Shown: one piece after another, positions 9,605 through 60,368 of the stretch
Position numbering within the stretch: position 1 is the first letter of the stretch
Layout: the number at the start of each line of letters is the position of its first letter
IMG/VR virus record: IMGVR_UViG_3300023184_000026
Location: 1-64,000 of that record
Source: a virus
Length of the DNA stretch: 64,000 bases
Strand: one strand, 5' to 3'
Notes under the pieces: model-generated
Told to the model about the DNA's origin: nothing
Database searches by the model: none
The model's input: only the letters and a program-made list of their open reading frames with translations
Position numbers and translations under genes: made by a program

Positions 9605-9643
9605 AAATATATTATAAAATAATAATATACAACACAGGTTATA

Positions 9644-9651
9644 TATAAATA
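9644..9651 (+). promoter_or_regulatory. T4-type late box TATAAATA before adhesin gene
   Basis: TATAAATA, identical to the T4 late promoter element, lies 3 nt before the ATG at 9655. A second sense-strand copy (26197-26204) abuts the start of the gp26-like gene. Most other late-region genes carry the reverse-complement-like TATTTATA instead. Confidence 0.45.
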
Positions 9652-19046: not shown

Positions 19047-19637
19047 ATGCATATATTACTGAAGAATATCTTGAAAGAAGCAGTGGCCAAAGAAGATGGT
19101 GAAAATCCATTAAAAATTCAATTATACGTGGATATGGACGGAGTTCTCGTTGATTTGGATGGTGGGTTTAAAAAAATAACAACAATGACACCAAAAGAAT
19201 ATTCGAAAAAAAATGGAAAAAATGCTTTTTGGGATGTTGTAGAAAAGAATCCAAATTTTTGGTTGGATCTGAATCCTCTACCGGACGCAAAAATTTTGTG
19301 GGACTTTATAAAAGATAATTTTAAAAATCCGTCGCCCATAATACTAAGCGCGGGACAAGGTTCCAATGTTAAAAAACAAAAAGAAGCTTGGATAAGAAAA
19401 TATATTGATTCAACGGTTGAGGTAAGAATTGCAACCTCTGGTTATTTGAAATCAAACTATGCCACAAAAATTCCGAATGTTATGAATGTGTTGTTGGATG
19501 ACACCGGTCCCGTTGACGTAGAAGACGGCAGGCCGGATAACATAACAGCATGGGAAAATGTGTCTGGCAACATTGCCATTCATCACACAGACACAGCGAG
19601 CAGTATACAAAAAATTAGAGATATACTCTCAATATGA
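19047..19637 (+). CDS. HAD-superfamily phosphatase-like protein with N-terminal helix tag
   Basis: A 196-residue protein. Residues 1-17 (MHILLKNILKEAVAKED) match the recurrent short helix of this genome and contain L-K-E-A, a T4-prohead-protease-like site. From ~25 a HAD domain follows: motif I VDMDGVLVDLDGG (nucleophile and acid Asp), a motif II region IILSAGQ, and a late LLDDTGPVDV acidic motif, in a layout like 5'-nucleotidase/NIF-type HAD proteins. The substrate is unknown. Its stop overlaps the next ATG (ATGA). The tag suggests possible capsid packaging. Confidence 0.7.
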   Translation: MHILLKNILKEAVAKEDGENPLKIQLYVDMDGVLVDLDGGFKKITTMTPKEYSKKNGKNAFWDVVEKNPNFWLDLNPLPDAKILWDFIKDNFKNPSPIILSAGQGSNVKKQKEAWIRKYIDSTVEVRIATSGYLKSNYATKIPNVMNVLLDDTGPVDVEDGRPDNITAWENVSGNIAIHHTDTASSIQKIRDILSI

Positions 19638-22942: not shown

Positions 22943-22951
22943 ATATTTATA
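22943..22951 (+). promoter_or_regulatory. ATATTTATA box
   Basis: The box lies 22 nt before the ATG at 22974. The rest of the 243-bp gap from 22731 holds the terminator and AT-rich sequence with no ORF. Confidence 0.5.
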
Positions 22952-22973
22952 TATACTTAAGAATAGAAAATCT

Positions 22974-23603
22974 ATGAATAAAGATCGACTAAAACAACTG
23001 GTAAGACAAATAGTAAAAGAAGCAATTGGATTGGGAGTGGCTGAAACCAATCTACAAGAAGGAACTCCACCAAATTTTCCAGCCGCTCTTAAAAAGAAAT
23101 TGTTGAATCAATACAAAGATGTTCCACAAAAAGCTTATGCTACAATGTGGAAGATGTATAATGCTAAAAATGAAGGTAATCAGCGTGTTTGTGAAATGTG
23201 GGCTGCTTGGGAATCCAAGGGAATGAATGAAGCTGTATCTGGTATGAATGTAGCTTATATTGCTAATGTTGATAACAATGTTTGCTCATTGACTGGTGAT
23301 GAAATTGCTGAAATTGTTAAAAAACATGGTGTTAAAATGCAATGGATTGGCGATGCAGCATTTGGCACAGAAACACTTCGTAATTATAAATTTAAGATTT
23401 CAGGTCCAACTGGAGAAATTGATACTTTAGTTGATGAACTAGCAGAAGAAAATGGTATTGAATTTCAGGATTCTAAATTGGAAGAACGTGATGAAGAACA
23501 TGATGAAACAGACATGAATAATCCAGAAGAAAAGCGTGAAGTTGAATTGGCTAAAAAAGCCAAAGCCGCTGCTGAAGAAATATTAAAAATGCACGGCAAA
23601 TGA
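22974..23603 (+). CDS. Tagged modular protein with 'KAYATMWK' module
   Basis: A 209-residue protein. Residues 1-19 (MNKDRLKQLVRQIVKEAIG) are a clear copy of the tag helix with the protease-like I-V-K-E-A. Residues ~30-80 hold PPNFPAALKKKLLNQYKDVPQKAYATMWKMYNAKNEGNQRVCEMW, a short module I recall from many uncharacterised marine and freshwater phage proteins. Residues ~90-165 form an alpha/beta domain, and an acidic then Lys/Ala-rich tail follows. It overlaps the next gene as ATGA. Function unknown; an internal capsid protein is possible. Confidence 0.7.
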   Translation: MNKDRLKQLVRQIVKEAIGLGVAETNLQEGTPPNFPAALKKKLLNQYKDVPQKAYATMWKMYNAKNEGNQRVCEMWAAWESKGMNEAVSGMNVAYIANVDNNVCSLTGDEIAEIVKKHGVKMQWIGDAAFGTETLRNYKFKISGPTGEIDTLVDELAEENGIEFQDSKLEERDEEHDETDMNNPEEKREVELAKKAKAAAEEILKMHGK

Positions 23604-24097
23604 AAAAATTTGAACTAAGAAATCTTATCAAAGAAATTGTTCAGCGTAAACTGAATGAAAATATTGGTCAGAACGCTGATGCTGTGAATAAAATTGTTGG
23701 TGAAAATTCTATAAAAGATGTGAAGATAATGACTCATGCTGGTTCACACAATTTAGAAATTGTAGAAATTTATGAAAACAACGGTGTTTTGTATTTTAGT
23801 GTAAATACAGATTCAGTTGAACAAAATGAAACTATTCAAGAAATTGGTGAAGTTGGCGCGATGGGTATTGCTTCACCAGAATCTGGTATGAAAGACTCAG
23901 ACAAAAAATCATTGGCTACATATCAAGCCGCTTTGGATAAATTCACCAATGACATTCGAAAAATTGATGCTGATGTTGCCAAGTTACAGGCACCGGTCCA
24001 AAGAAAAATAGAAGGACTTGAACGTAAAAAAGCAAGTTTGGCAAAGAAACAAGGTCAAATCGTGGACAGAATCAACGGCATCAAAGACAAACAATAA
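23600..24097 (+). CDS. Tagged protein with C-terminal coiled coil
   Basis: A 165-residue protein beginning MKKFELRNLIKEIVQRKLNE, the tag helix in its fullest form. A small beta-rich part follows (SIKDVKIMTHAGSHNLEIVEIYENNGVLYFSVNTD). Residues ~100-165 form a basic coiled coil (DKFTNDIRKIDADVAKLQ, GLERKKASLAKKQGQIVD). No known family recognised. It is co-transcribed with tagged genes on both sides. Confidence 0.65.
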   Translation: MKKFELRNLIKEIVQRKLNENIGQNADAVNKIVGENSIKDVKIMTHAGSHNLEIVEIYENNGVLYFSVNTDSVEQNETIQEIGEVGAMGIASPESGMKDSDKKSLATYQAALDKFTNDIRKIDADVAKLQAPVQRKIEGLERKKASLAKKQGQIVDRINGIKDKQ

Positions 24098-24100
24098 ATT

Positions 24101-25156
24101 ATGAAAAAATCTGAACTAAAAGATTTGATCAAAGAAATGCTACAAGATCAACATCCATTGCCACAAGACACGCATGCTACTGATTTGAATGAGTTGGTTG
24201 ACAATTCTGTTATGATTCAAACCAGCAAAGGACCATATAAATTTTGGGCAGATGAAGATCGTGAAGAAGACAATATCAAGTTGTTTCATTATGTCAAAGG
24301 ACCGGACGGCAAAGAATACGACGTGAACATAAGTCCATATGAAATTAATTGGAAATCCCCAGATATGATTGAAAAAGTAAAGAAGTGGATTGAATCTGAT
24401 ATGCCAAATACAAAAATCAGAGAAAATAATTTACAAGAAAACAAAACTACCATGAAAAAATCTGAACTAAAAGCACTACTAAAAGTAATTGTTCAAGAAG
24501 TTGTTGCAACAAAGCAAAAACGTATTGACGAAACCAAAAGATTATCTGGATTCAAGAAACCATCCACATCAAAAAATATGGGCAGTCTCAAAGAAGACAT
24601 CTTGAGCATGATTCGCGAAGCTATTGATGAATCGGACATTGAAGAAATTCGTGTTAAAGGTGCTGTGGGCAGCAAGTTTAAAGTGCAAGATTCAAGTTCT
24701 CCAACCGGCTGGGCAGTCAAAGGTCACAAGACCATTCCAGATGGCACACCAACCGAAGCTCCAAAAGGACCATATATTCCAAAAGGAATTGCTGGTATGG
24801 GTCGTCCAAAGAAAGTTGCACCAGTTTCAAGTGTCGGTGGATCTGACTTTGATACAGCAACTCGTGGTGCAATTGAAAATATTTTGACCGCCGCTCCCAA
24901 CACAACAGACAGCGATATTATACAACAATTGTCTTCAAGTGCAAGCGAAGAAGAAGTATCTCTCAATCTAGATCCAGCGTTTGTCAAGAAAACCGCAGAT
25001 GAATTGAGAAAAGAACTTTCTGCTGACACAGACAATCAACTAGACGACGCTCCAGAAAGTGATCTTGCTGCTATGTCATCTTCAGAAGAAAAAAGAAAAG
25101 CTGCACAGCGCGCCTTTATTATTAAGAAACTACAAGCAAAACGAGCAATCAAATAA
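24101..25156 (+). CDS. Protein with three tag-type helices
   Basis: A 351-residue protein with the tag helix at its start (MKKSELKDLIKEMLQ), again almost identically at Met118 (base 24452, MKKSELKALLKVIVQEVV), and a third time near residue 168 (LKEDILSMIREAIDE, with I-R-E-A). Between the first two lies a compact domain (MIQTSKGPYKFWADEDREEDNIKLFHYVKGPDGKEYDVNISPYEINW). After the third come VKGAVGSKFKVQDSSSPTGWAVKGHKTIPDGTP and a helical C terminus. Met118 could also serve as an internal start. The layout looks like fused tagged proteins or a cleavable polyprotein. Confidence 0.65.
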   Translation: MKKSELKDLIKEMLQDQHPLPQDTHATDLNELVDNSVMIQTSKGPYKFWADEDREEDNIKLFHYVKGPDGKEYDVNISPYEINWKSPDMIEKVKKWIESDMPNTKIRENNLQENKTTMKKSELKALLKVIVQEVVATKQKRIDETKRLSGFKKPSTSKNMGSLKEDILSMIREAIDESDIEEIRVKGAVGSKFKVQDSSSPTGWAVKGHKTIPDGTPTEAPKGPYIPKGIAGMGRPKKVAPVSSVGGSDFDTATRGAIENILTAAPNTTDSDIIQQLSSSASEEEVSLNLDPAFVKKTADELRKELSADTDNQLDDAPESDLAAMSSSEEKRKAAQRAFIIKKLQAKRAIK

Positions 25157-26129: not shown

Positions 26130-26203
26130 ATAATATCTTAGTTTTTATATATACACAAAACTTTTTGTAGTTCATATATATAACAAACAACCGTTATATA
26201 AAT

Positions 26204-27055
26204 ATGGATAATACAATACCAGTATCAAGACAAGCAGCACCTGTTTCAACATCGGTGCATACACAAAACCAACAGGCAGTCACGCCAGCCGAAACAAAGT
26301 TGGATTTTCCAGTTGAATATATAGACATTCCATCAGAAGGCTATTTTTATCCAACATCTTCTCCATTGTCATCAGGTCGCATTCAATTGAAACACATGAC
26401 CGCAAGAGAAGAAGATATTCTTACCAACCAAAATCTTATTAAAAAGGGAGTTGTACTTGATGAATTGTTGAAAGCAATCATTGTTACTCCAAATGTTAAA
26501 CTTGATGATATTGTGGTTGGTGATAAAAATGCTATATTTGTAGCCGCTCGAAGGCTTGCATATGGTGACAAATATTCTGCAAAAATTACATGTCCAAAAT
26601 GTGGAGAAGAAAATGAAGTAGAAATTAATCTTGGAGATGTAAAGTTCAAAGAATTTGATTTTACCAAATATACAAAAGGTGAAAATGCATTTAATTTTGA
26701 ACTACCAATATCTAAAAAGAATCTTACATATAGACTTCTTACTCACAAAGATGAAAATGATATTGATGCTGAATTGAAAGGTTTGGCAAAAATATCAAAA
26801 ACAAACGCACCAGAAATGACCACGCGTTTAAAATATACCATCATAGCAATTGATGGAAACAATGATAGAGGATTGATTAAAAAGTTTGTGGATAATATGC
26901 TTGCCAAAGACAGCATATCTTTTCGCAAACACATAAAACAAAATACTCCAGACATGGACATGACATTTGATTTTACATGTACCGCGTGCGGACACAACGA
27001 GCGGATGGCATTGCCATTGGGTGTGGACTTCTTTTGGCCTTCCTCTGGAGTATAA
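26204..27055 (+). CDS. 26: Baseplate hub protein, gp26-like, with two zinc knuckles
   Basis: A 283-residue protein of the T4 gp26-type baseplate family. It shows the N-terminal IDIPSEGYFYP, IQLKHMTAREEDILTNQNLIKKGVVLDELL and VGDKNAIFVAARRLAYG. A CPKCGEENEV knuckle (~residues 129-132) and a second, CTACGHNERMALPLGVDFFWP (~259-262), could together bind zinc. A TATAAATA runs into the start codon. It lies just upstream of the tape measure, as expected of a hub or assembly factor. A second ORF overlaps its 3' end in another frame. Confidence 0.8.
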   Translation: MDNTIPVSRQAAPVSTSVHTQNQQAVTPAETKLDFPVEYIDIPSEGYFYPTSSPLSSGRIQLKHMTAREEDILTNQNLIKKGVVLDELLKAIIVTPNVKLDDIVVGDKNAIFVAARRLAYGDKYSAKITCPKCGEENEVEINLGDVKFKEFDFTKYTKGENAFNFELPISKKNLTYRLLTHKDENDIDAELKGLAKISKTNAPEMTTRLKYTIIAIDGNNDRGLIKKFVDNMLAKDSISFRKHIKQNTPDMDMTFDFTCTACGHNERMALPLGVDFFWPSSGV

Positions 27056-37468: not shown

Positions 37469-37477
37469 ATATTTATA
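37469..37477 (+). promoter_or_regulatory. ATATTTATA box, 4 nt before ATG
   Basis: ATATTTATA, then TACC, then ATG at 37482. A second ATATTTATA lies at 37418-37426, at the polymerase stop. Confidence 0.55.
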
Positions 37478-37481
37478 TACC

Positions 37482-44437: not shown

Positions 44438-45271
44438 ATGGCACCAGTAATCATCGACAATCTACATAAATTTGGCTTGGAATTCCAAGTAAAAATTGTA
44501 GCAAGTATTTTAACTGACAAAGTATTTCTTGAAAGAATATGCGACATTATTGATGTGGATGCTTTTGAAAACGAAGCCCATCAATGGATTCTCAAAGAAA
44601 TTATTCAATATCATATTCAATACAAAGACTTGCCAACACCGCAAGTATTCAAGGTTCGTATTGACACTATTGAAAACGATGCATTCAAATCATCTGTGGT
44701 ACAGCAACTAACACAAGTTTACACAAAAATCAGTGAAAAAGATTTGCAGTTTGTGCGCGAACAATTTCTTGAATTCTGTAAGAATCAAAAGTTGAAGAGT
44801 GCCATTATTGAATCAGTTGATCATCTAAAAACTGGTGAATATGATAAAATAAAGGGGCTGGTTGACAAGGCAATGAAGGCTGGCATGGAACGCAATCTTG
44901 GACACAACTACCATAAAGAAGTTGCTGGTCGTATGAGTGAAATGTGCCGCAAGACTATATCAACGGGTTGGGAAGTCATTGACAGCCTCATGGATGGTGG
45001 TCTTGGACCTGGTGAACTTGGTATTATTGTGGCTCCAGCGGGCATTGGAAAGTGCGTCGGCCCAAACACAAAAATTGATATTCAATATTATGAAACGGGT
45101 ATTCCAATAAAAGGAAATTCTGGCAAAGAATATATACTATGGTTTAAACCATTTGATAAATTTGAGTTTGATGGCAGAATGCTATTTGGTTGGCAAGTTG
45201 ACAATATTTTGTTTGAATTGGAGCAACTAAAGTTGCAGGTGCTGGATTCGGAAAAACAACATAAAAAATGA
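44438..45271 (+). CDS. 41: gp41-like replicative helicase, N-terminal half fused to intein N-fragment
   Basis: 277 residues. Residues 1-205 are the N-terminal domain and start of the RecA-like motor of a DnaB/gp41 helicase (TISTGWEVIDSLMDGGLGPGELGIIVAPAGIGK). The Walker A is broken right after the Lys: residue 206 is Cys (base 45053), opening the intein block A, CVGPNTKIDIQYYETG. The remaining ~70 residues (to EKQHKK) are the N-intein fragment; no block B, no catalytic TxxH, so it cannot splice alone. The completing half is at 46224-47414, with a homing-endonuclease gene between. Trans-splicing would give a ~465-residue helicase, close to T4 gp41 (475). Confidence 0.9.
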   Translation: MAPVIIDNLHKFGLEFQVKIVASILTDKVFLERICDIIDVDAFENEAHQWILKEIIQYHIQYKDLPTPQVFKVRIDTIENDAFKSSVVQQLTQVYTKISEKDLQFVREQFLEFCKNQKLKSAIIESVDHLKTGEYDKIKGLVDKAMKAGMERNLGHNYHKEVAGRMSEMCRKTISTGWEVIDSLMDGGLGPGELGIIVAPAGIGKCVGPNTKIDIQYYETGIPIKGNSGKEYILWFKPFDKFEFDGRMLFGWQVDNILFELEQLKLQVLDSEKQHKK

Positions 45272-45304: not shown

Positions 45305-46237
45305 ATGAACATATTAACATGCAAAATTTGCGGATTCTCCGCATCGTCATTAGTTTCTCATATACGTCATAAACATGCTACTAATGGAACCGATTACAAA
45401 ATAAAATTTGGAAACGTCCCATTGTCAGTAATGTCTGATCAACAGAAAAAAAAATTGTCAGACATAAATATAAAAAAATGTAAAGATCCCGCCCATATCA
45501 AACGTATGTCGGATGTACAAAAAATGGGCGGATCAATTTACACCAAATTATATTGGACGACACGAGGATTTTCGGATATAGAAGCCAAGAAAAAAATAAA
45601 AGAAATACAAACTTCAAATTCAAAAAAATCAGTTGCCAAAGGAAATTGGGGGAAGCGATCTTGGATGTTGGTGGAGTATTGGATTTCTAAAGGTTATACC
45701 GAAGATATGGCAAAGACGGAAATTTCTAAAAGACAAGCCAAATTGTCTGCAAAATCTTCAAAATTTTTGGGACATACGCGAACAGCTGAGTCGTGTGAGA
45801 AGATATCGTCGTCCATGCGTAAAAAAATTGATGAAATTGGAACGGGGCAATGGGCTTCTCACTTTGGAAAATTTTCCGGTAGAAGTAAAGCGGAAATAAA
45901 ATTTTATAATTATATTAAAGAAAATATAGAACCCACGGCAACGGCAAATGAACCAATCGGTGCATATATTGTCGATGTCATAGTTAATAAAAAAATAATT
46001 GAATTTTATGGGGATTTTTGGCACGCAAATCCAACTATTTATAAATCAAACGAAATATTAGCCGGTTATATGGAAACACCTCGTTCGGTCCAAGAGATTT
46101 GGAATAAGGATGCGAAAAGAGTGGACACACTTCGAACGATGGGGTATGATGTGCTAGAAGTGTGGGAATCGGATTGGAACGAGCAAAAAAATCAATCAAT
46201 CAACAAAATAAAACAATTTTTATATGGTAATTCGTAA
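45305..46237 (+). CDS. Free-standing Vsr-like homing endonuclease
   Basis: 310 residues. Residues 1-30 hold a zinc-finger-like CKICGFSASSLVSHIRHKH, followed by a MucR-like DYKIKFGNVPLS. The middle has helical DNA-binding repeats (MSDVQKMGGSIYTKLYW; KISSSMRKK). The C-terminal third has the hallmark KIIEFYGDFWHANPTIY, then EIWNKDAKRVDTLRTMGYDVLEVWESDW, the Vsr-type (EDxHD) fold found in homing endonucleases inserted between split-intein halves. It overlaps the C-half gene by 14 bp. Its job would be to cut helicase genes lacking the insertion. Confidence 0.88.
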   Translation: MNILTCKICGFSASSLVSHIRHKHATNGTDYKIKFGNVPLSVMSDQQKKKLSDINIKKCKDPAHIKRMSDVQKMGGSIYTKLYWTTRGFSDIEAKKKIKEIQTSNSKKSVAKGNWGKRSWMLVEYWISKGYTEDMAKTEISKRQAKLSAKSSKFLGHTRTAESCEKISSSMRKKIDEIGTGQWASHFGKFSGRSKAEIKFYNYIKENIEPTATANEPIGAYIVDVIVNKKIIEFYGDFWHANPTIYKSNEILAGYMETPRSVQEIWNKDAKRVDTLRTMGYDVLEVWESDWNEQKNQSINKIKQFLYGNS

Positions 46238-47414
46238 ACGACTAACAACAGAAGAAATTTCTATGAAAGACCTATTTCATAAAATTGGCGTTGAAGATAA
46301 AGAATTGGCAGCATTGACTGTGCCTTTTCCACTATCCGTACATACGCCGTATGGATACAAACACATTGTGACTGCGTTTAGAACGGAGAAACAAAAAACA
46401 GTCACCACGTATTTTAAAAATAATACAACATTGAAAACATCCGATCATCACCAATTAAAAGTTAATGGCGATTGGAAAAAAGTAAAAGATATTATTGAGT
46501 CGGATGTAGTTGAGACAGAATCTGGCACAACCTCCATAAAGAAAAAGCATTATGGAAATGATGAAATATTATATGACATATCAGTTGAGGACGTACATTG
46601 CTATTACAGCAACGGAATTTTATCTCACAACTCGTGGTTACTATGTTCATTGGGTGCCAGAGCAATGAAATCGGGAAAGAATATTGCTCACTTCACACTG
46701 GAACTAAATGAAAATTATGTTGGTCTTCGTTATGATTGTTGTTTTACAGGAATTGAGTTTCAAGAAATTAAACATCGTCAATCCGACGTTGAAGAAAAAA
46801 TCAAAGACATCAAAGGAAAACTTTTTGTAAAGTATTTTCCATTGAAGACAGTAAGTGCTCAATCATTAAAGTTTCATATTGAACGCATACAAGCATTGGA
46901 AGGAATTCATATTGATGAAATGGTGGTTGATTATGCCGACATTTTGCGTCCTCTTGAAAAAGAAACCAACAGCAATAGCTATAGCGAGGCTGGTGGTATA
47001 TATGAAGAACTGCGTCAGGCTGCTGGTGAACTACAGATTCCAGTATGGACTGCTTCACAAACCAATCGCGGCGGTGGTCAAGAAGATGTTGTTCAAGCCC
47101 ATAACATCGCCGATTCATATCGTAAGATCATGACTGCCGACTTTGTGTTGAGTGTTGCCCGTAATACAACAGACAAAGCCAACAACACTGCTCGTTGTCA
47201 TGTTATCAAAAATAGATTTGGACCGGATGGTATTACCTTGTATGCCAATATGAACACCAGCACTGGTCAAATTGATTTGTATGACGCCAAATCCAAAGAA
47301 TCTATGGCAATCCAATCCACTATGGAAGGTGATGATAATAGTGTAAAGAACATGTTGAAAAATAAATGGAACAGTGGTCGCCAAAAGCAAAATGGCGAAA
47401 ACACCAATTTGTAA
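46224..47414 (+). CDS. 41: Intein C-fragment fused to C-terminal half of gp41-like helicase
   Basis: 396 residues. Residues 1-136 are the intein C-fragment: VHTPYGYKHIVTAF, block B-like LKTSDHHQLKV, WKKVKDIIESDVVE, and the terminal blocks DEILYDISVEDVHCYYSNGILSHN with the penultimate His and last Asn. Ser137 (base 46632) is the +1 extein residue and restores Walker A as GIGK-S. Residues 137-396 are the RecA-like motor: Walker B MVVDYADILRPLE, then WTASQTNRGG and an Arg-finger region VIKNRFGPDG. Met14 (46263) is an alternative start. Block B in the C-half shows that the split is near the intein N terminus, unlike canonical split inteins. Confidence 0.9.
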   Translation: MVIRKRLTTEEISMKDLFHKIGVEDKELAALTVPFPLSVHTPYGYKHIVTAFRTEKQKTVTTYFKNNTTLKTSDHHQLKVNGDWKKVKDIIESDVVETESGTTSIKKKHYGNDEILYDISVEDVHCYYSNGILSHNSWLLCSLGARAMKSGKNIAHFTLELNENYVGLRYDCCFTGIEFQEIKHRQSDVEEKIKDIKGKLFVKYFPLKTVSAQSLKFHIERIQALEGIHIDEMVVDYADILRPLEKETNSNSYSEAGGIYEELRQAAGELQIPVWTASQTNRGGGQEDVVQAHNIADSYRKIMTADFVLSVARNTTDKANNTARCHVIKNRFGPDGITLYANMNTSTGQIDLYDAKSKESMAIQSTMEGDDNSVKNMLKNKWNSGRQKQNGENTNL

Positions 47415-50177: not shown

Positions 50178-50216
50178 TGCACCTAACTATTTATATACTA
50201 AACGCATATATACACT

Positions 50217-50927
50217 ATGAACAACAGAGATCTTATCAAAAAAGCCATCAAGAAATTAGTATTACAAGAAATTGCCAACAATCAATTTGGCACACCAATT
50301 CAATATGACAAAAAAGATATAGTGGGCATAGACGCATTGAATAAATCACTGGGTAAAGAATCAACAGTTATGCAAATTCGTGGTACAGGCAAAACGATGG
50401 GAGCAACAAAAAATCAAGAAGTTCAATTGAATAAAAATTGCGATGCTTGTTATGATGTTGTATCAGTTACCAATGAATCTGAACGCAAGATTGCTCGTGG
50501 CGTATCGCTTGAAGCTGCTATGGAACTTGTAAAGAAACATGCCGGTGATTCTGAAAAGACATATGTTCAAAAAGCATATGACAAAAGTCTAAAAGGATTT
50601 GGACTGAAGACAGCCGAAAGAGATGCAGACATGAAGTTGGAAGATACTATGGATGATGCTGATGAAGAATTGCAGATTGATATTGCAGATGACAATACTG
50701 AAAAAGCAGATGTTAAAGCAGACAAAGAAAATGGTCCAATCAACAAAGATGTATCTGCATCAATGGGTGGAGAAATGGTAGATAAGATTGAAAAGATTAT
50801 TGATCGTATCTTAAAGAACAAAGCTGATGCGAAAACAGCTCACTTAAAAACTGATAAAGACATGGAAAGTTCAGACAAACTGACCACAAAGCTAAAAGAT
50901 ACTCCTGCTCTCAAAGAAAAGAAATAA
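50217..50927 (+). CDS. Tagged acidic protein
   Basis: 236 residues. Begins MNNRDLIKKAIKKLVLQEIA, a tag helix. A small middle domain follows (VQLNKNCDACYDVVSVTNESERKIARGVSLEAAMELVKKHAGD), then a long acidic/Lys-rich helical tail. Unknown family; the middle resembles short modules in other phage structural-region proteins. It precedes the Cys-rich modular protein by 3 bp. Confidence 0.6.
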   Translation: MNNRDLIKKAIKKLVLQEIANNQFGTPIQYDKKDIVGIDALNKSLGKESTVMQIRGTGKTMGATKNQEVQLNKNCDACYDVVSVTNESERKIARGVSLEAAMELVKKHAGDSEKTYVQKAYDKSLKGFGLKTAERDADMKLEDTMDDADEELQIDIADDNTEKADVKADKENGPINKDVSASMGGEMVDKIEKIIDRILKNKADAKTAHLKTDKDMESSDKLTTKLKDTPALKEKK

Positions 50928-50930
50928 TCT

Positions 50931-52307
50931 ATGTACGATAAGATTGAACAAGAACTCACCGAACTTGATGAAAATCTTCATAAATGGTTCAAAGAGAAAT
51001 GGGTAAGATTTGGACCTGATGGCAAGATCCGAGGCGATTGTGCCAGAGAAAAGTCAAGCGAAGGCAAGCCAAAATGCCGTCCATTAAAATCTGCACAAGG
51101 TATGGGTAAAAAAGCCAGAGCAACTGCTGCACGCAGAAAACGCCGTGAAGATCCAAACCCAGACCGTAAAGGTAAAGCAAAGAATGTAAAAACCGAAGAA
51201 ATCACCCCGAAAAATTTTGACAATTTAAATTATATTGGCAACTGCAAGGACGATGATGTGATTGAGCATATTTTTGGTGATGCCACTAATTTTGCCCAAG
51301 CAGTGGAAAAATATGGAAATGAATTTACAGTCAAGGATTTGGTGGTAAAGTATGATCCAGAAGCAGATATTCATAGTTTCTATTACAAGAATAATGAAAT
51401 GAACGAGCACAAATGCCCAATCTGCGGAGGTGAACTTGTATCAGAAGCACTAATGAACGAAAAGAAAGATGCTTGTTATTATAAGGTCAAATCACGCTAC
51501 AAAGTGTGGCCAAGTGCATATGCATCTGGTGCGCTCGTAAAGTGTCGTAAGAAAGGTGCCAAAAACTGGGGTAATAAATCAGAAGGATTTGAAAAAGTTG
51601 ATGAAGCATGTTGGAAAGGCTATCACAAAGATGGTATGAAAACTATGTTTGGTAAAAAATATCCAAACTGCGTTAAAAACGAAGCCGAACAACAACAAGA
51701 AGAACTAGAGGAAAAATGGAGCGAAAAATACAAGAGTAGTATAGATTGCAGTCATCCAAAAGGATTTAGTCAAAAAGCACATTGCCAAGGTCGCAAAAAA
51801 ACTAATGAATCTATTATGAAAAAAGAACAACTAAAAAACCTGATAAGAGAAATGATAGAAGAAATGTATAATGAACAATCCAAGATGCAAGATGAATGCT
51901 TGGAATGTTATGAATCTGCAATGCAAGAAGGAACAAACGAAATTTGGGAAGATTGTTATCGCAAAACTAATTTAGATATGATTCCAGAAGGTGATGAACA
52001 TACATGCGAAGGTGATGAATTTTATGAAATATATGGAGATATGAAATACGACCCGGAAAAAATAGAAGAAGCAGAATATCATGGTCGTAAAGTTAAACTT
52101 GGTGTTCCTATGAAGGGTGATGTAAAAAAATCAAAAGTTTATGTCAAGAACCCAAAAGGTAATGTTGTAAAAGTTAATTTTGGTGATCCAAACATGCGTA
52201 TAAAAAAGAGCAATCCAAAGCGTAGAAAGAGTTTTAGAGCAAGACATAATTGTTCTACGGCAAAAGATAGAACATCGGCAAGATATTGGAGTTGCAGAGC
52301 ATGGTAA
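50931..52307 (+). CDS. Mosaic Cys-rich basic protein made of short phage modules
   Basis: 458 residues, a string of short conserved motifs: FKEKWVRFGPDGKIRGDCA with KPKCRPL (~20-55); CPICGGELVSEAL (~161-175); KKDACYYKVKSRYKVWPSAYASGALVKCRKKGAKNWG (~180-216); DEACWKGYHKDGMK...KYPNCV (~225-250); KYKSSIDCSHPKGFSQKAHCQG (~265-287); an internal tag helix from Met296 (base 51816, MKKEQLKNLIREMIEEMYNE); and a C-terminal RRKSFRARHNCSTAKDRTSARYWSCRAW. I recall several of these from unrelated-length proteins of pelagiphages, cyanophages and giant viruses, all without known function. Paired Cys suggest small metal- or disulphide-held folds; high basic content suggests nucleic acid contact. Confidence 0.75.
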   Translation: MYDKIEQELTELDENLHKWFKEKWVRFGPDGKIRGDCAREKSSEGKPKCRPLKSAQGMGKKARATAARRKRREDPNPDRKGKAKNVKTEEITPKNFDNLNYIGNCKDDDVIEHIFGDATNFAQAVEKYGNEFTVKDLVVKYDPEADIHSFYYKNNEMNEHKCPICGGELVSEALMNEKKDACYYKVKSRYKVWPSAYASGALVKCRKKGAKNWGNKSEGFEKVDEACWKGYHKDGMKTMFGKKYPNCVKNEAEQQQEELEEKWSEKYKSSIDCSHPKGFSQKAHCQGRKKTNESIMKKEQLKNLIREMIEEMYNEQSKMQDECLECYESAMQEGTNEIWEDCYRKTNLDMIPEGDEHTCEGDEFYEIYGDMKYDPEKIEEAEYHGRKVKLGVPMKGDVKKSKVYVKNPKGNVVKVNFGDPNMRIKKSNPKRRKSFRARHNCSTAKDRTSARYWSCRAW

Positions 52308-52379: not shown

Positions 52380-52409
52380 TTGACTTTCTATAAAATGTGT
52401 GCATAGTTA
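52380..52409 (+). promoter_or_regulatory. Sigma70-like promoter of split cobS-like gene
   Basis: TTGACT (52380-52385), 18 nt, TAGTTA (52404-52409). It shares TTGACTTT..TAT....ATGT..GCATA with the promoter before rIIA (56317-56346). The predicted start would fall close to the ATG at 52415. Confidence 0.5.
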
Positions 52410-52414
52410 TGCAC

Positions 52415-52714
52415 ATGAGTAAAACAAAGAAATATTCAATCAACGAAGTCAAAGACATCATTGATACTTGCTATTCACTCAAGCCCGAAAAGCTATTTAT
52501 GGGCGAATTGAAATGGAAGTATCTTGTACGCAGTGCTTTGCGTGGCAAAAATATTCTGTTGCTTGGACCGGCTGGTCAAGGCAAAACATTGGCAGTTCAA
52601 TGCTTGGTTGATGCGATGGAGGAAGTTATTGAGGAAGAAGTTACGGAAGAACAACTGAATGTGTTTAAAACCGAACCGTCCGTGGTTATTGTAAAAATAG
52701 AAGAAATCAAATGA
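52415..52714 (+). CDS. cobS: CobS-like AAA+ ATPase, N-terminal fragment
   Basis: 99 residues from MSKTKKYSINEVKD (GTG at 52397 is a possible longer start). It ends shortly after Walker A: LLLGPAGQGKTLAVQCLVDAMEE (~residues 51-70), then EEVTEEQLNVFKTEPSVVIVKIEEIK and a stop. The matching continuation, from RPFCPINLGSSQDARA on, is at 53518-54285. Between them lies an opposite-strand GIY-YIG gene. No intein block A or catalytic Cys is present. Cyanophage CobS proteins are single chains with only a dozen residues between Walker A helix and the NLG-x-QD-x-RA motif. Confidence 0.75.
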   Translation: MSKTKKYSINEVKDIIDTCYSLKPEKLFMGELKWKYLVRSALRGKNILLLGPAGQGKTLAVQCLVDAMEEVIEEEVTEEQLNVFKTEPSVVIVKIEEIK

Positions 52715-53468
52715 TCTCTAATTTGAAATTGGATCTGTTATTATGTAACAGTTTATATCTGGTCAATTCTGGATACATAGACAACAAAAATTCATCAACC
52801 CTTTTTGTTCCAACCAATATAATCGTCTCTCCGAACACATTCGTAAATTTATACCGGTTGGCATCTTTTCTTGGGGTAGCCAATTTTATTCCTTGATGAG
52901 ATTCACTCAATCTTTTTTTCATTTTCATGTCCCATAAAATTCCGCGTCTAGATGGCATTATGATTTCTCCCAATTTCAATTTACTTTTCAGCGTGTCAGA
53001 TAGTTTTTTTACTCTAATATCTGTGTCTTTTGTTTTTCCCTTATTCCAGACGGTTGGCCTGTTTCTCAACTTTTTTATTATATTTTCTTTATTTGGATTA
53101 TTGTTATATGTGTCTCCACCTTCTCCACCGATAGTTATATTATAAAGAGGACCATCGTTGGAAATTTTTCTACCTATGACACGTATCAACTCAATTTCCA
53201 ATCTTGATGACTCATCCTTTGTTAAATTTTCATATAATACTTTTACTATTGGGGTGTTCTTACTATCAATAAGTTGTTTTATTTTTGCTCTTATGCAGGT
53301 CCGCGTATCACCCCGTCTCGCTTTTATAAAATGACTATTCCATCTATTATAATTACCCTTTCCTATATAAATTGGCGTTGCTGAAAATTCATGTTCTCCA
53401 TATTTTATATTACAGGGGATTGTTATATCTAATATCACATACACATATTTATTCATTTTAGTTCCCAA
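52707..53468 (-). CDS. GIY-YIG homing endonuclease (antisense insertion)
   Basis: 253 residues on the minus strand. N-terminal GIY-YIG nuclease: KYVYVILDI, PIYIGKGNYNRWNSH (Y-I-G-K-G), and a catalytic-Glu helix SRLEIELIRVIGR, followed by GPLYNITIGGEGGDTY, the loop common in phage GIY-YIG enzymes. The C-terminal part has NUMOD3-like DNA-binding text (RRGILWDMKMKKRLSESHQGIK) and a basic tail. Its stop overlaps the end of the CobS-like N-fragment. It sits exactly in the gap of the split AAA+ gene, so it most likely broke it. Confidence 0.85.
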   Translation of the reverse strand: MGTKMNKYVYVILDITIPCNIKYGEHEFSATPIYIGKGNYNRWNSHFIKARRGDTRTCIRAKIKQLIDSKNTPIVKVLYENLTKDESSRLEIELIRVIGRKISNDGPLYNITIGGEGGDTYNNNPNKENIIKKLRNRPTVWNKGKTKDTDIRVKKLSDTLKSKLKLGEIIMPSRRGILWDMKMKKRLSESHQGIKLATPRKDANRYKFTNVFGETIILVGTKRVDEFLLSMYPELTRYKLLHNNRSNFKLEII

Positions 53469-53517
53469 GTTGATGTAAAAATAAATATAAAACGATTATA
53501 CCAAAACATTAAATTTT

Positions 53518-54285
53518 ATGAAAAAATACAAGATAAAATATAAAAAAAGAAGACCTTTTTGTCCAATAAATTTGGGGAGTTCTCAGGACGCCCGCGCAAT
53601 TTTAATTGGAAACACTCAGTTCTCCAAAGAGACGGGAACATTTTTTCAGGAGTCTCCATTTGTGAAAGCCATTTTAACTCCAAATTCGATCATCATGCTT
53701 GACGAGTTAAGCCGTGCAAATCCAGACGCCGTGAATATATTGATGCCCGTCCTTGATAACCAGAGATACTTGAGATTGGATGAGTGGGGCGGGAAGATCG
53801 TAAAGGTAGCAGAAGGCGTCTGTTTCATTGCCACGGCAAATATTGGCAATGATTATACCGCTACACGAGTCATGGACAAAGCTTTGACCGATCGTTTCAC
53901 GGTTAAGATTGAAGTTGATATTCTTTCTTCTGAAGAAGAACTGAAGTTGATAAAGGTGGTTTGTCCTGATGCCGATATTCATCTCATGGACAAGATTGCA
54001 CAAATTGCTGCTACAACTCGTGAGTTTACAAAGCAAGGAAAGTTGAGTCGTTTTGTTTCTACTCGTTCTGTTGTAGAAATGGCCGAACTTACCGTGGATG
54101 GATTTAGCTTGGTAGAGTTGGCTGAAATGGTCATTTACCCCGACTATCCAGACGATGGTGGTTTGGACAGTGAACGCACAATGGTCAAACAAGTTGTACA
54201 AAAACATGTTGCGGTCAAAGCCGATCCATTGAACAAAGTGTTCAACACAAACAAACAGAATAAAGACGATTTGCCCCCGTTTTGA
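53518..54285 (+). CDS. cobS: CobS-like AAA+ ATPase, C-terminal fragment
   Basis: 255 residues. Residues 1-15 (MKKYKIKYKKRRPFC) are a Lys-rich start unlike the rest. From ~16 the MoxR/CobS pattern is full: INLGSSQDARAILIGNTQFSKETGTFFQESPFVKAI, Walker B IIMLDELSRANPDAVNILMPVLDN (~58-80), sensor 1 CFIATANIGNDYTATRVMDKALTDRF (~102-128), and sensor 2 region KLSRFVSTRSVVEMAEL. Walker A is on the separate fragment at 52415. Lacking Walker A, it can act only if the two parts assemble. The next gene overlaps it and encodes the VWA partner. Confidence 0.8.
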   Translation: MKKYKIKYKKRRPFCPINLGSSQDARAILIGNTQFSKETGTFFQESPFVKAILTPNSIIMLDELSRANPDAVNILMPVLDNQRYLRLDEWGGKIVKVAEGVCFIATANIGNDYTATRVMDKALTDRFTVKIEVDILSSEEELKLIKVVCPDADIHLMDKIAQIAATTREFTKQGKLSRFVSTRSVVEMAELTVDGFSLVELAEMVIYPDYPDDGGLDSERTMVKQVVQKHVAVKADPLNKVFNTNKQNKDDLPPF

Positions 54286-60356: not shown

Positions 60357-60368
60357 CTATTTATATAT

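Follow-up and report, generated by a model that had tools for sequence, protein, structure and literature searches.

The 458-residue open reading frame (ORF) at 50931-52307 on the plus strand of the 64,000-nucleotide stretch analysed here (the window; positions 1 to 64,000 of IMG/VR record IMGVR_UViG_3300023184_000026) is a mosaic of small basic modules, which we read, with a probability of about 0.6, as a polyprotein packaged into the head, where a gp21-type protease cuts it into small basic peptides that accompany the DNA. An ORF check of the window returned the same coordinates, and the gene is present as a single copy in the whole contig, a T4-type jumbo-phage sequence of 297,258 bases. 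No Pfam, NCBIfam or PDB family covers the whole protein, and an AlphaFold model of the full-length chain was uninformative (mean pLDDT 49, pTM 0.20). A PHROGs profile search matches residues 4-297 to phrog_727 (E 3.6e-48), which places the ORF with that family by profile, and its best database relatives are cyanophage proteins, for example Syn9 gp114. The parts of the ORF are listed below, arrows here and in the text standing directly after a hydrophobic-x-E site.

50931..52307, plus strand: mosaic polyprotein-like ORF, 458 residues, phrog_727, full-length relatives at loci L006-L024
50964..50972, plus strand: LDE, candidate gp21-type (hydrophobic-x-E) site before M1
50973..51206, plus strand: M1 (NLHKWFKEKWVRFGPDGK..CAR..CRP..RKRREDPNP), residues 15-92, net charge +15, two Cys
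51207..51398, plus strand: insert, residues 93-156, net charge -7, without counterpart in relatives
51399..51461, plus strand: MNE↓HKCPICGGELVSEALMNE, a CPxC knuckle between two hydrophobic-x-E sites (159, 177)
51462..51584, plus strand: M3 (KKDACYYKVKSRYKVWPSAYASGALVKCRKKGAKNWGNKSE), residues 178-218, net charge +10, two Cys
51597..51605, plus strand: VDE, candidate gp21-type site before M4
51606..51686, plus strand: M4 (ACWKGYHKDGMKTMFGKKYPNCVKNEA), residues 226-252, two Cys
51705..51713, plus strand: LEE, candidate gp21-type site before M5
51714..51809, plus strand: M5 (KWSEKYKSSIDCSHPKGFSQKAHCQGRKKTNE), residues 262-293, net charge +5, two Cys
51816..51884, plus strand: internal tag helix MKKEQLKNLIREMIEEMYNEQSK, residues 296-318, with LIRE and MIEE sites
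51885..52061, plus strand: M7, residues 319-377, acidic (net charge -15), Cys-rich, in close relatives only
52062..52070, plus strand: IEE, candidate gp21-type site before M8
52071..52304, plus strand: M8 (AEYHGRKVKLG..RRKSFRARHNC..RYWSCRAW), residues 381-458, net charge +19, two Cys

The chain consists of small basic two-cysteine modules joined by acidic linkers that end in hydrophobic-x-Glu. In a first step a helical tag, at residue 296 here and at N-termini elsewhere, would bring the chain into the prohead core, in the manner of the T4 capsid-targeting sequence (CTS); as the head matures, the phage's own S77 prohead protease would then cleave the module boundaries after L/I/V/M-x-E; and the basic mini-proteins so released would remain with the packaged DNA and reach the next host cell upon infection. 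Targeting by the tag is predicted from its motif, its position and its genome context, gp21-type cutting between modules would follow from the consensus sites, and we infer both that the mosaic protein itself is packaged in the head and that its peptides are delivered into the host. Of these steps, packaging has good support. As each module would work alone, their order and number would be free, which would explain the shuffling and the enzyme fusions described below. The same genome encodes a gp21/S77-type prohead protease (275753-276379 of the contig; PF03420 at 275840-276259, E 5.3e-26), and a gp23-like capsid gene lies near 280.6 kb, its product being closest to those of Microcystis phage Mel-JY01, an unannotated metagenomic phage and the Flavobacterium 'immuto' phages, all at <60% identity. 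The rule of two cysteines and basic charge, the boundary sites, the CTS-linked starts, the virion link and the recurrence of the tag are new findings. For the aquatic phages of the T4 superfamily as a whole, we consider it an even bet that exchangeable two-cysteine basic mini-proteins, strung into variable polyproteins, are loaded into the prohead, released by the protease at a site before every module and delivered with the genome as a combinatorial cargo system.

The modules were defined by segment-wise HMMs built from the mosaic ORF, each searched separately, and hits were counted in a set of 436 loci with 10,232 distinct ORFs. Every HMM found its own module in other proteins (M1 244 hits, M3 256, M4 239, M5 140 and M8 95), and this confirms the proposal of a preliminary description of this DNA that the ORF holds several separable modules; the tag helix that it named is confirmed as well. 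The six motifs of 15-40 residues listed there are better described as five shared modules with lengths of ~27-78 residues (M1 ~78, M3 41, M4 27, M5 32, M8 78); CPICGG (residues 162-167) and M7 (319-377) are common to a narrower set. It had also placed the modules singly in viral proteins of unknown function, and shuffling among such proteins is borne out by 67 distinct module orders across the 436 loci, in which modules are permuted, omitted, repeated or placed on separate small genes (e.g., M1-M4-M5-M3, M3-M1-M5, M5-M4-M3-M1 and M4-M1-M4-M3). Adjacent small genes encode modules in 38 loci; Roseobacter phage CRP-901, for example, has one gene each for M3, M1 and M8. Among isolate phages, M8 occurs apart from the other modules in Pelagibacter, Roseobacter, Flavobacterium and Methylophilales phages, M5 in 17 cyanophage records, and M3 and M4 in >300 records each. 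The possibility that the modules are parts of one known domain was tested and is excluded by the 67 orders and the separate genes. Further recurrent stretches, one of them DUF6321, lie between the modules, which are also found fused to cytidylyltransferase-like, GNAT, deaminase, NT5C and sigma-70 region 4 domains and to LysM, PG-binding, GH19 and zeta-toxin kinase domains. A cellular origin of the modules gained no support, because among 84,980 species scanned M3 turned up only in 21 MAG contigs, which are probably phage contigs; several MAG contigs (L422, L423, L426, L428, L430) have adjoining stand-alone M3 and M1 genes, e.g. LKRWFKEKWIDVRTGKPCGR..PSKRVSSKTPKT, which are a different branch of these modules.

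The preliminary description had placed the modules in both phage and giant-virus proteins. They do occur in phages; the giant-virus part is indirect and runs through weak resemblances of M8 to DUF5754/Tlr6F and of M3 to DUF5872. Twenty-five of 47 M8 sequences match DUF5754 weakly (best E 0.002), the copy in the mosaic ORF gives no match, and M8 stays below the Pfam gathering score of the family. The M3 regions of two relatives reach 17-18 bits against DUF5872, below the gathering score of 27.5, and the mosaic protein has no match to it at E up to 1. Since the curated cut-offs are not reached, we claim membership of neither family. DUF5754, or Tlr6F (PF19058), has been described in phages as well as in NCLDVs and polinton-like viruses (PMC12220804), and one phycodnavirus carries genes of both DUF5754 and DUF5872 (PMC12085832). 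Modelled alone, M8 is predicted to form beta strands and then two helices (pLDDT 86.7); no solved structure is a credible relative, and the matches are uncharacterised phage proteins only. PDB sequence searches with M8, M3 and M1 returned nothing useful, the M1 matches being designed proteins over 17 residues, and a literature search with the module sequences gave no match.

The five modules share a simple composition. Each of M1, M3, M4, M5 and M8 has exactly two near-invariant cysteines, both of which are kept in 797 of 799 complete copies (one copy has neither and one a single cysteine). All five families are basic: their median net charges range from +5 to +19, and neutral or acidic copies are very rare. 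The charge suggests nucleic-acid binding. The acidic parts of the mosaic protein are the linkers, the insert at residues 93-156 and M7.

A hydrophobic-x-E triplet commonly stands directly in front of a module, and the sites of the mosaic ORF are LDE↓NLHKWF, MNE↓HKCPIC, MNE↓KKDACY, VDE↓ACWKG, LEE↓KWSEK and IEE↓AEYHG. T4 gp21 cleaves after L/I-x-E (PMC9026906), and judged by sequence the hydrophobic-x-E triplet is a slightly relaxed form of this consensus; the M3 and M4 sites of the mosaic ORF, MNE and VDE, are relaxed forms. In the junction test the triplet was sought at a fixed offset before each module, upstream sequences being mutually <35% identical and V, M and F being counted at P3 besides L and I. 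It was present at 52 of 52 independent junctions before M5, 35 of 40 before M8, 74 of 100 before M1, 70 of 104 before M4 and 31 of 61 (51%) before M3, against permutation means of 1.9, 1.8, 6.3, 3.1 and 2.1, respectively, an excess whose exact size is somewhat optimistic because the offsets were picked from the data tested, although selection from a handful of offsets could not account for so wide a gap. The strict L/I-x-E form precedes 55/77 distinct internal copies of M5, 46/69 of M8, 96/171 of M4, 79/152 of M3 and 71/175 of M1; before M1 and M3, glycine often replaces the site. Downstream of the modules no offset exceeds 22% where junctions suffice, and there is no peak like the upstream one. 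The other recurrent stretches M10, M12, M14 and M17 have no strong hydrophobic-x-E peak in front, so the junction test does not always succeed.

Many N-terminal module copies are preceded by a T4-like CTS that ends at the module-front site (e.g., MKTYQEFISE↓AKKCWPGY, MKAYEFITE↓KWSQKY, MRASEIITE↓KCWKGY and MRAEEFISE↓DLRKWF); the T4 record shows IPII and IPIII both beginning MKTYQEFIAE↓A, and a CTS of 10 residues suffices for packaging in T4 (PMC9026906). CTS-like starts are carried by 60 of the 431 module ORFs, against 98 of 2605 among the remaining ORFs of these loci (odds ratio 4.1, p 2e-14), the ratio being somewhat inflated because the comparison group includes mechanical ORFs. The mosaic ORF itself begins MYDKIEQELTELDE↓N, with an LDE site and without the T4 signal, its tag being internal. 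At L190, L374, L412, L363 and other loci, many more genes begin MRAxEFIxE, among them a family with MRASEFVTERKKYKRKSR..GYGGYGYY, and this may be a start by which a large group of packaged proteins can be recognised in T4-like phages.

A mosaic protein packaged as a head or core component need not be cut between its modules. It could stay one chain from which only the targeting sequence or tag is removed, with hydrophobic-x-Glu acting as a structural linker or helix cap, and such a chain would fit the detection of module proteins in virions, acidic linkers that could be plain spacers, and boundary sites that are not universal (as before M3). We regard this as unlikely, although it is the strongest of the alternatives, as five unrelated modules carry the same motif at a fixed place and the cleavage site of the targeting sequence falls at the same offset in N-terminal copies (14/14 for M5 and 27/35 for M4). 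It is chiefly because the targeting-sequence end and the internal junction position coincide that we favour cleavage over a plain linker.

The tag helix, MKKEQLKNLIREMIEEMYNE from residue 296 of the mosaic ORF, has a MKKSELKxLIKEVVEEV-like consensus with a hydrophobic-x-E pattern and recurs at 12 places in the contig (tag profile, E < 1e-5). Besides the mosaic ORF, these are two clusters, at 22974-25156 and near 139.6-140.2 kb, a number of single sites, and 274387, which lies between a portal-like gene (271499) and the prohead protease gene (275753); 274702 (MNDTKQIIRELVEEVIEEM) and 278426 (MNTLKLKYLIERIVDE) are tag-like by eye, with a weak profile score or none. Features of the window that bear on the tag are the following.

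22974..23603, plus strand: tagged protein MNKDRLKQLVRQIVKE↓A..; in relatives, genes like it lie beside the mosaic gene
23600..24097, plus strand: tagged protein MKKFELRNLIKEIVQRKL, found by the tag profile
24101..25156, plus strand: tagged protein with tags at residues 1 and 118 (N-terminal and internal)
50188..50197, plus strand: TATTTATATA, ~20-29 nt upstream of 50217; motif also upstream of the tagged 22974
50217..50927, plus strand: neighbour gene with a tag-like N-terminal helix (MNNRDLIKKAIKKLVLQEIANNQ; LVLQE)

T4 CTSs are N-terminal, and an internal tag such as that of the mosaic ORF is unusual. In L025, L026, L031, L035 and L036 the tag begins a separate ORF carrying M4, M7 and M8, and for this reason the internal tag is most plausibly the start, retained or as a relic, of a gene that became fused. 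Translation of a separate product from the ATG at 51816 is disfavoured, no obvious ribosome-binding site being present, and fusion of a tagged gene is preferred on that ground. Among the listed close-relative loci with tags, 22 of 24 have tagged neighbour genes. The link to a packaged-protein system that the preliminary description had drawn is upheld by the CTS and putative gp21-type boundary sites, by virion mass spectrometry of relatives and by tags in the head operon; the 50217 protein, which it had singled out as the specific link, did not sustain that role, having a tag-like N-terminus but no detectable relatives in the phage collection and being missed by the tag profile.

The motif TATTTATATA occurs in six copies in the window against 0.34 expected, the others lying at 22944-22953, 37470-37479 and 60358-60367 (plus strand) and at 9642-9651 and 26195-26204 (minus strand), close upstream of gene starts that include both tagged-gene groups. 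A second motif, TATAAATA, has 19 copies against 5.5 expected, and both are possibly promoter elements. A 5'-3' deoxyribonucleotidase-like protein at 19047-19637 also has a tag-like N-terminal helix (MHILLKNILKEAVAKEDGEN) and may likewise be a packaged enzyme; in L420, modules are joined to NT5C.

Relatives with modules appear in the published mass-spectrometry proteomes of purified virions from two cyanophages. In S-CREM2, ORF160 (M1-M4-M3) was listed with 7 peptides and 13.1% coverage, too low to show cleavage, and ORF137 (M14-M9) with 4 peptides (PMC10665884, Table 3); these are its only module-bearing ORFs over most of the genome, a stretch in the long tail-fibre gene being omitted. In S-SZBM1, ORF139 (M4) is among the virion proteins and ORF192 (M9) is absent from the list (PMC9146016, Table 1). 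Three of four module-bearing proteins were thus detected, where 52 of ~219 and 30 of ~218 proteins were detected overall in S-CREM2 and S-SZBM1, respectively, a result that is suggestive, not strong, as it comes from two phages and larger proteins are favoured. Cytidylyltransferase-like enzymes have repeatedly been found in cyanophage virions (PMC3037559, PMC9602691, PMC10665884).

Detection in virions could also be carry-over, of which the S-CREM2 authors warn (PMC10665884), and the modules could then be nucleic-acid- or metal-binding additions to late proteins that act inside the infected cell. Basic charge, paired cysteines and fusion to many enzyme domains would all suit such additions. 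The T4-type CTS on N-terminal copies and the tags in the head operon nevertheless point to the prohead, and we hold this explanation to be improbable, more so than that of a single uncut chain.

The favoured reading, a packaged chain cut between its modules, has parallels in several known systems. The T4 internal proteins IPI, IPII and IPIII and Alt carry the MKTYQEFI-x-E signal that is also present on some module proteins, and T4 internal proteins resemble module proteins in presence in the virion and fast-evolving cargo, and in the L/I-x-E type of cleavage and the small basic products that are proposed for the latter. They differ in being single products cut at the N-terminus (Alt also at the C-terminus), whereas a module chain joins several exchangeable units, each preceded by a candidate site. 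The system would work like that of the T4 internal proteins, of which the mosaic protein would be a candidate member. The head and ejection proteins of phiKZ and SPN3US are likewise jumbo-phage products that are packaged and proteolytically matured, as is proposed for the mosaic protein, but they are large, have propeptides and show a different P3 preference, the prohead protease of these phages cleaving after S/A-x-E or A-x-E; they are not known to carry comparable modules. Syn9 gp114, encoded between terminase genes 16 and 17, has M1, M3 and M4 in the same order as the mosaic protein and differs in lacking M5, the tag, M7 and M8. T4 gp22, gp67 and gp68 are each one chain cut at multiple places inside the prohead by gp21, as would be the mosaic protein, but most of the T4 core protein fragments leave the head, and two-cysteine modules and shuffling are not described for them in a review (PMC9026906). 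A module chain serving as prohead scaffold or core in the manner of gp67 or gp68, cut, mostly expelled as T4 core fragments are (PMC9026906) and without a role in the next cell, is very improbable, given that module proteins are still detectable in mature virions and that fusions to cytidylyltransferase, GNAT, deaminase, sigma and wall-binding domains better suit delivered proteins.

Modules of this kind are found in hundreds of 'hypothetical proteins' of cyanophages, pelagiphages and jumbo phages. Should they prove to be head cargo, the first phage proteins to enter the host would be predictable from sequence alone, and enzymes that are fused to modules or have CTS-like starts could be assigned to the same delivery route. 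The system would also be a natural source of parts with which proteins could be packaged into phage heads.

Three further features were recorded. At 46224-47414 a 396-residue ORF has an intein-like start (PFPLSVHTPYGYKHIV..VEDVHCYYSNGILSHNS) followed by helicase-like sequence and adjoins a DnaB-like helicase fragment (44438-45271), so that it looks like an intein and/or a split helicase. An AAA/CobS-like gene at 52397-54285 is apparently split by a minus-strand GIY-YIG-like ORF (52707-53468), which appears to be a homing-endonuclease-type insertion. At 288-290 kb of contig G000 (locus L094), a predicted structural protein contains long low-complexity repeats of the GTSGTSG type.
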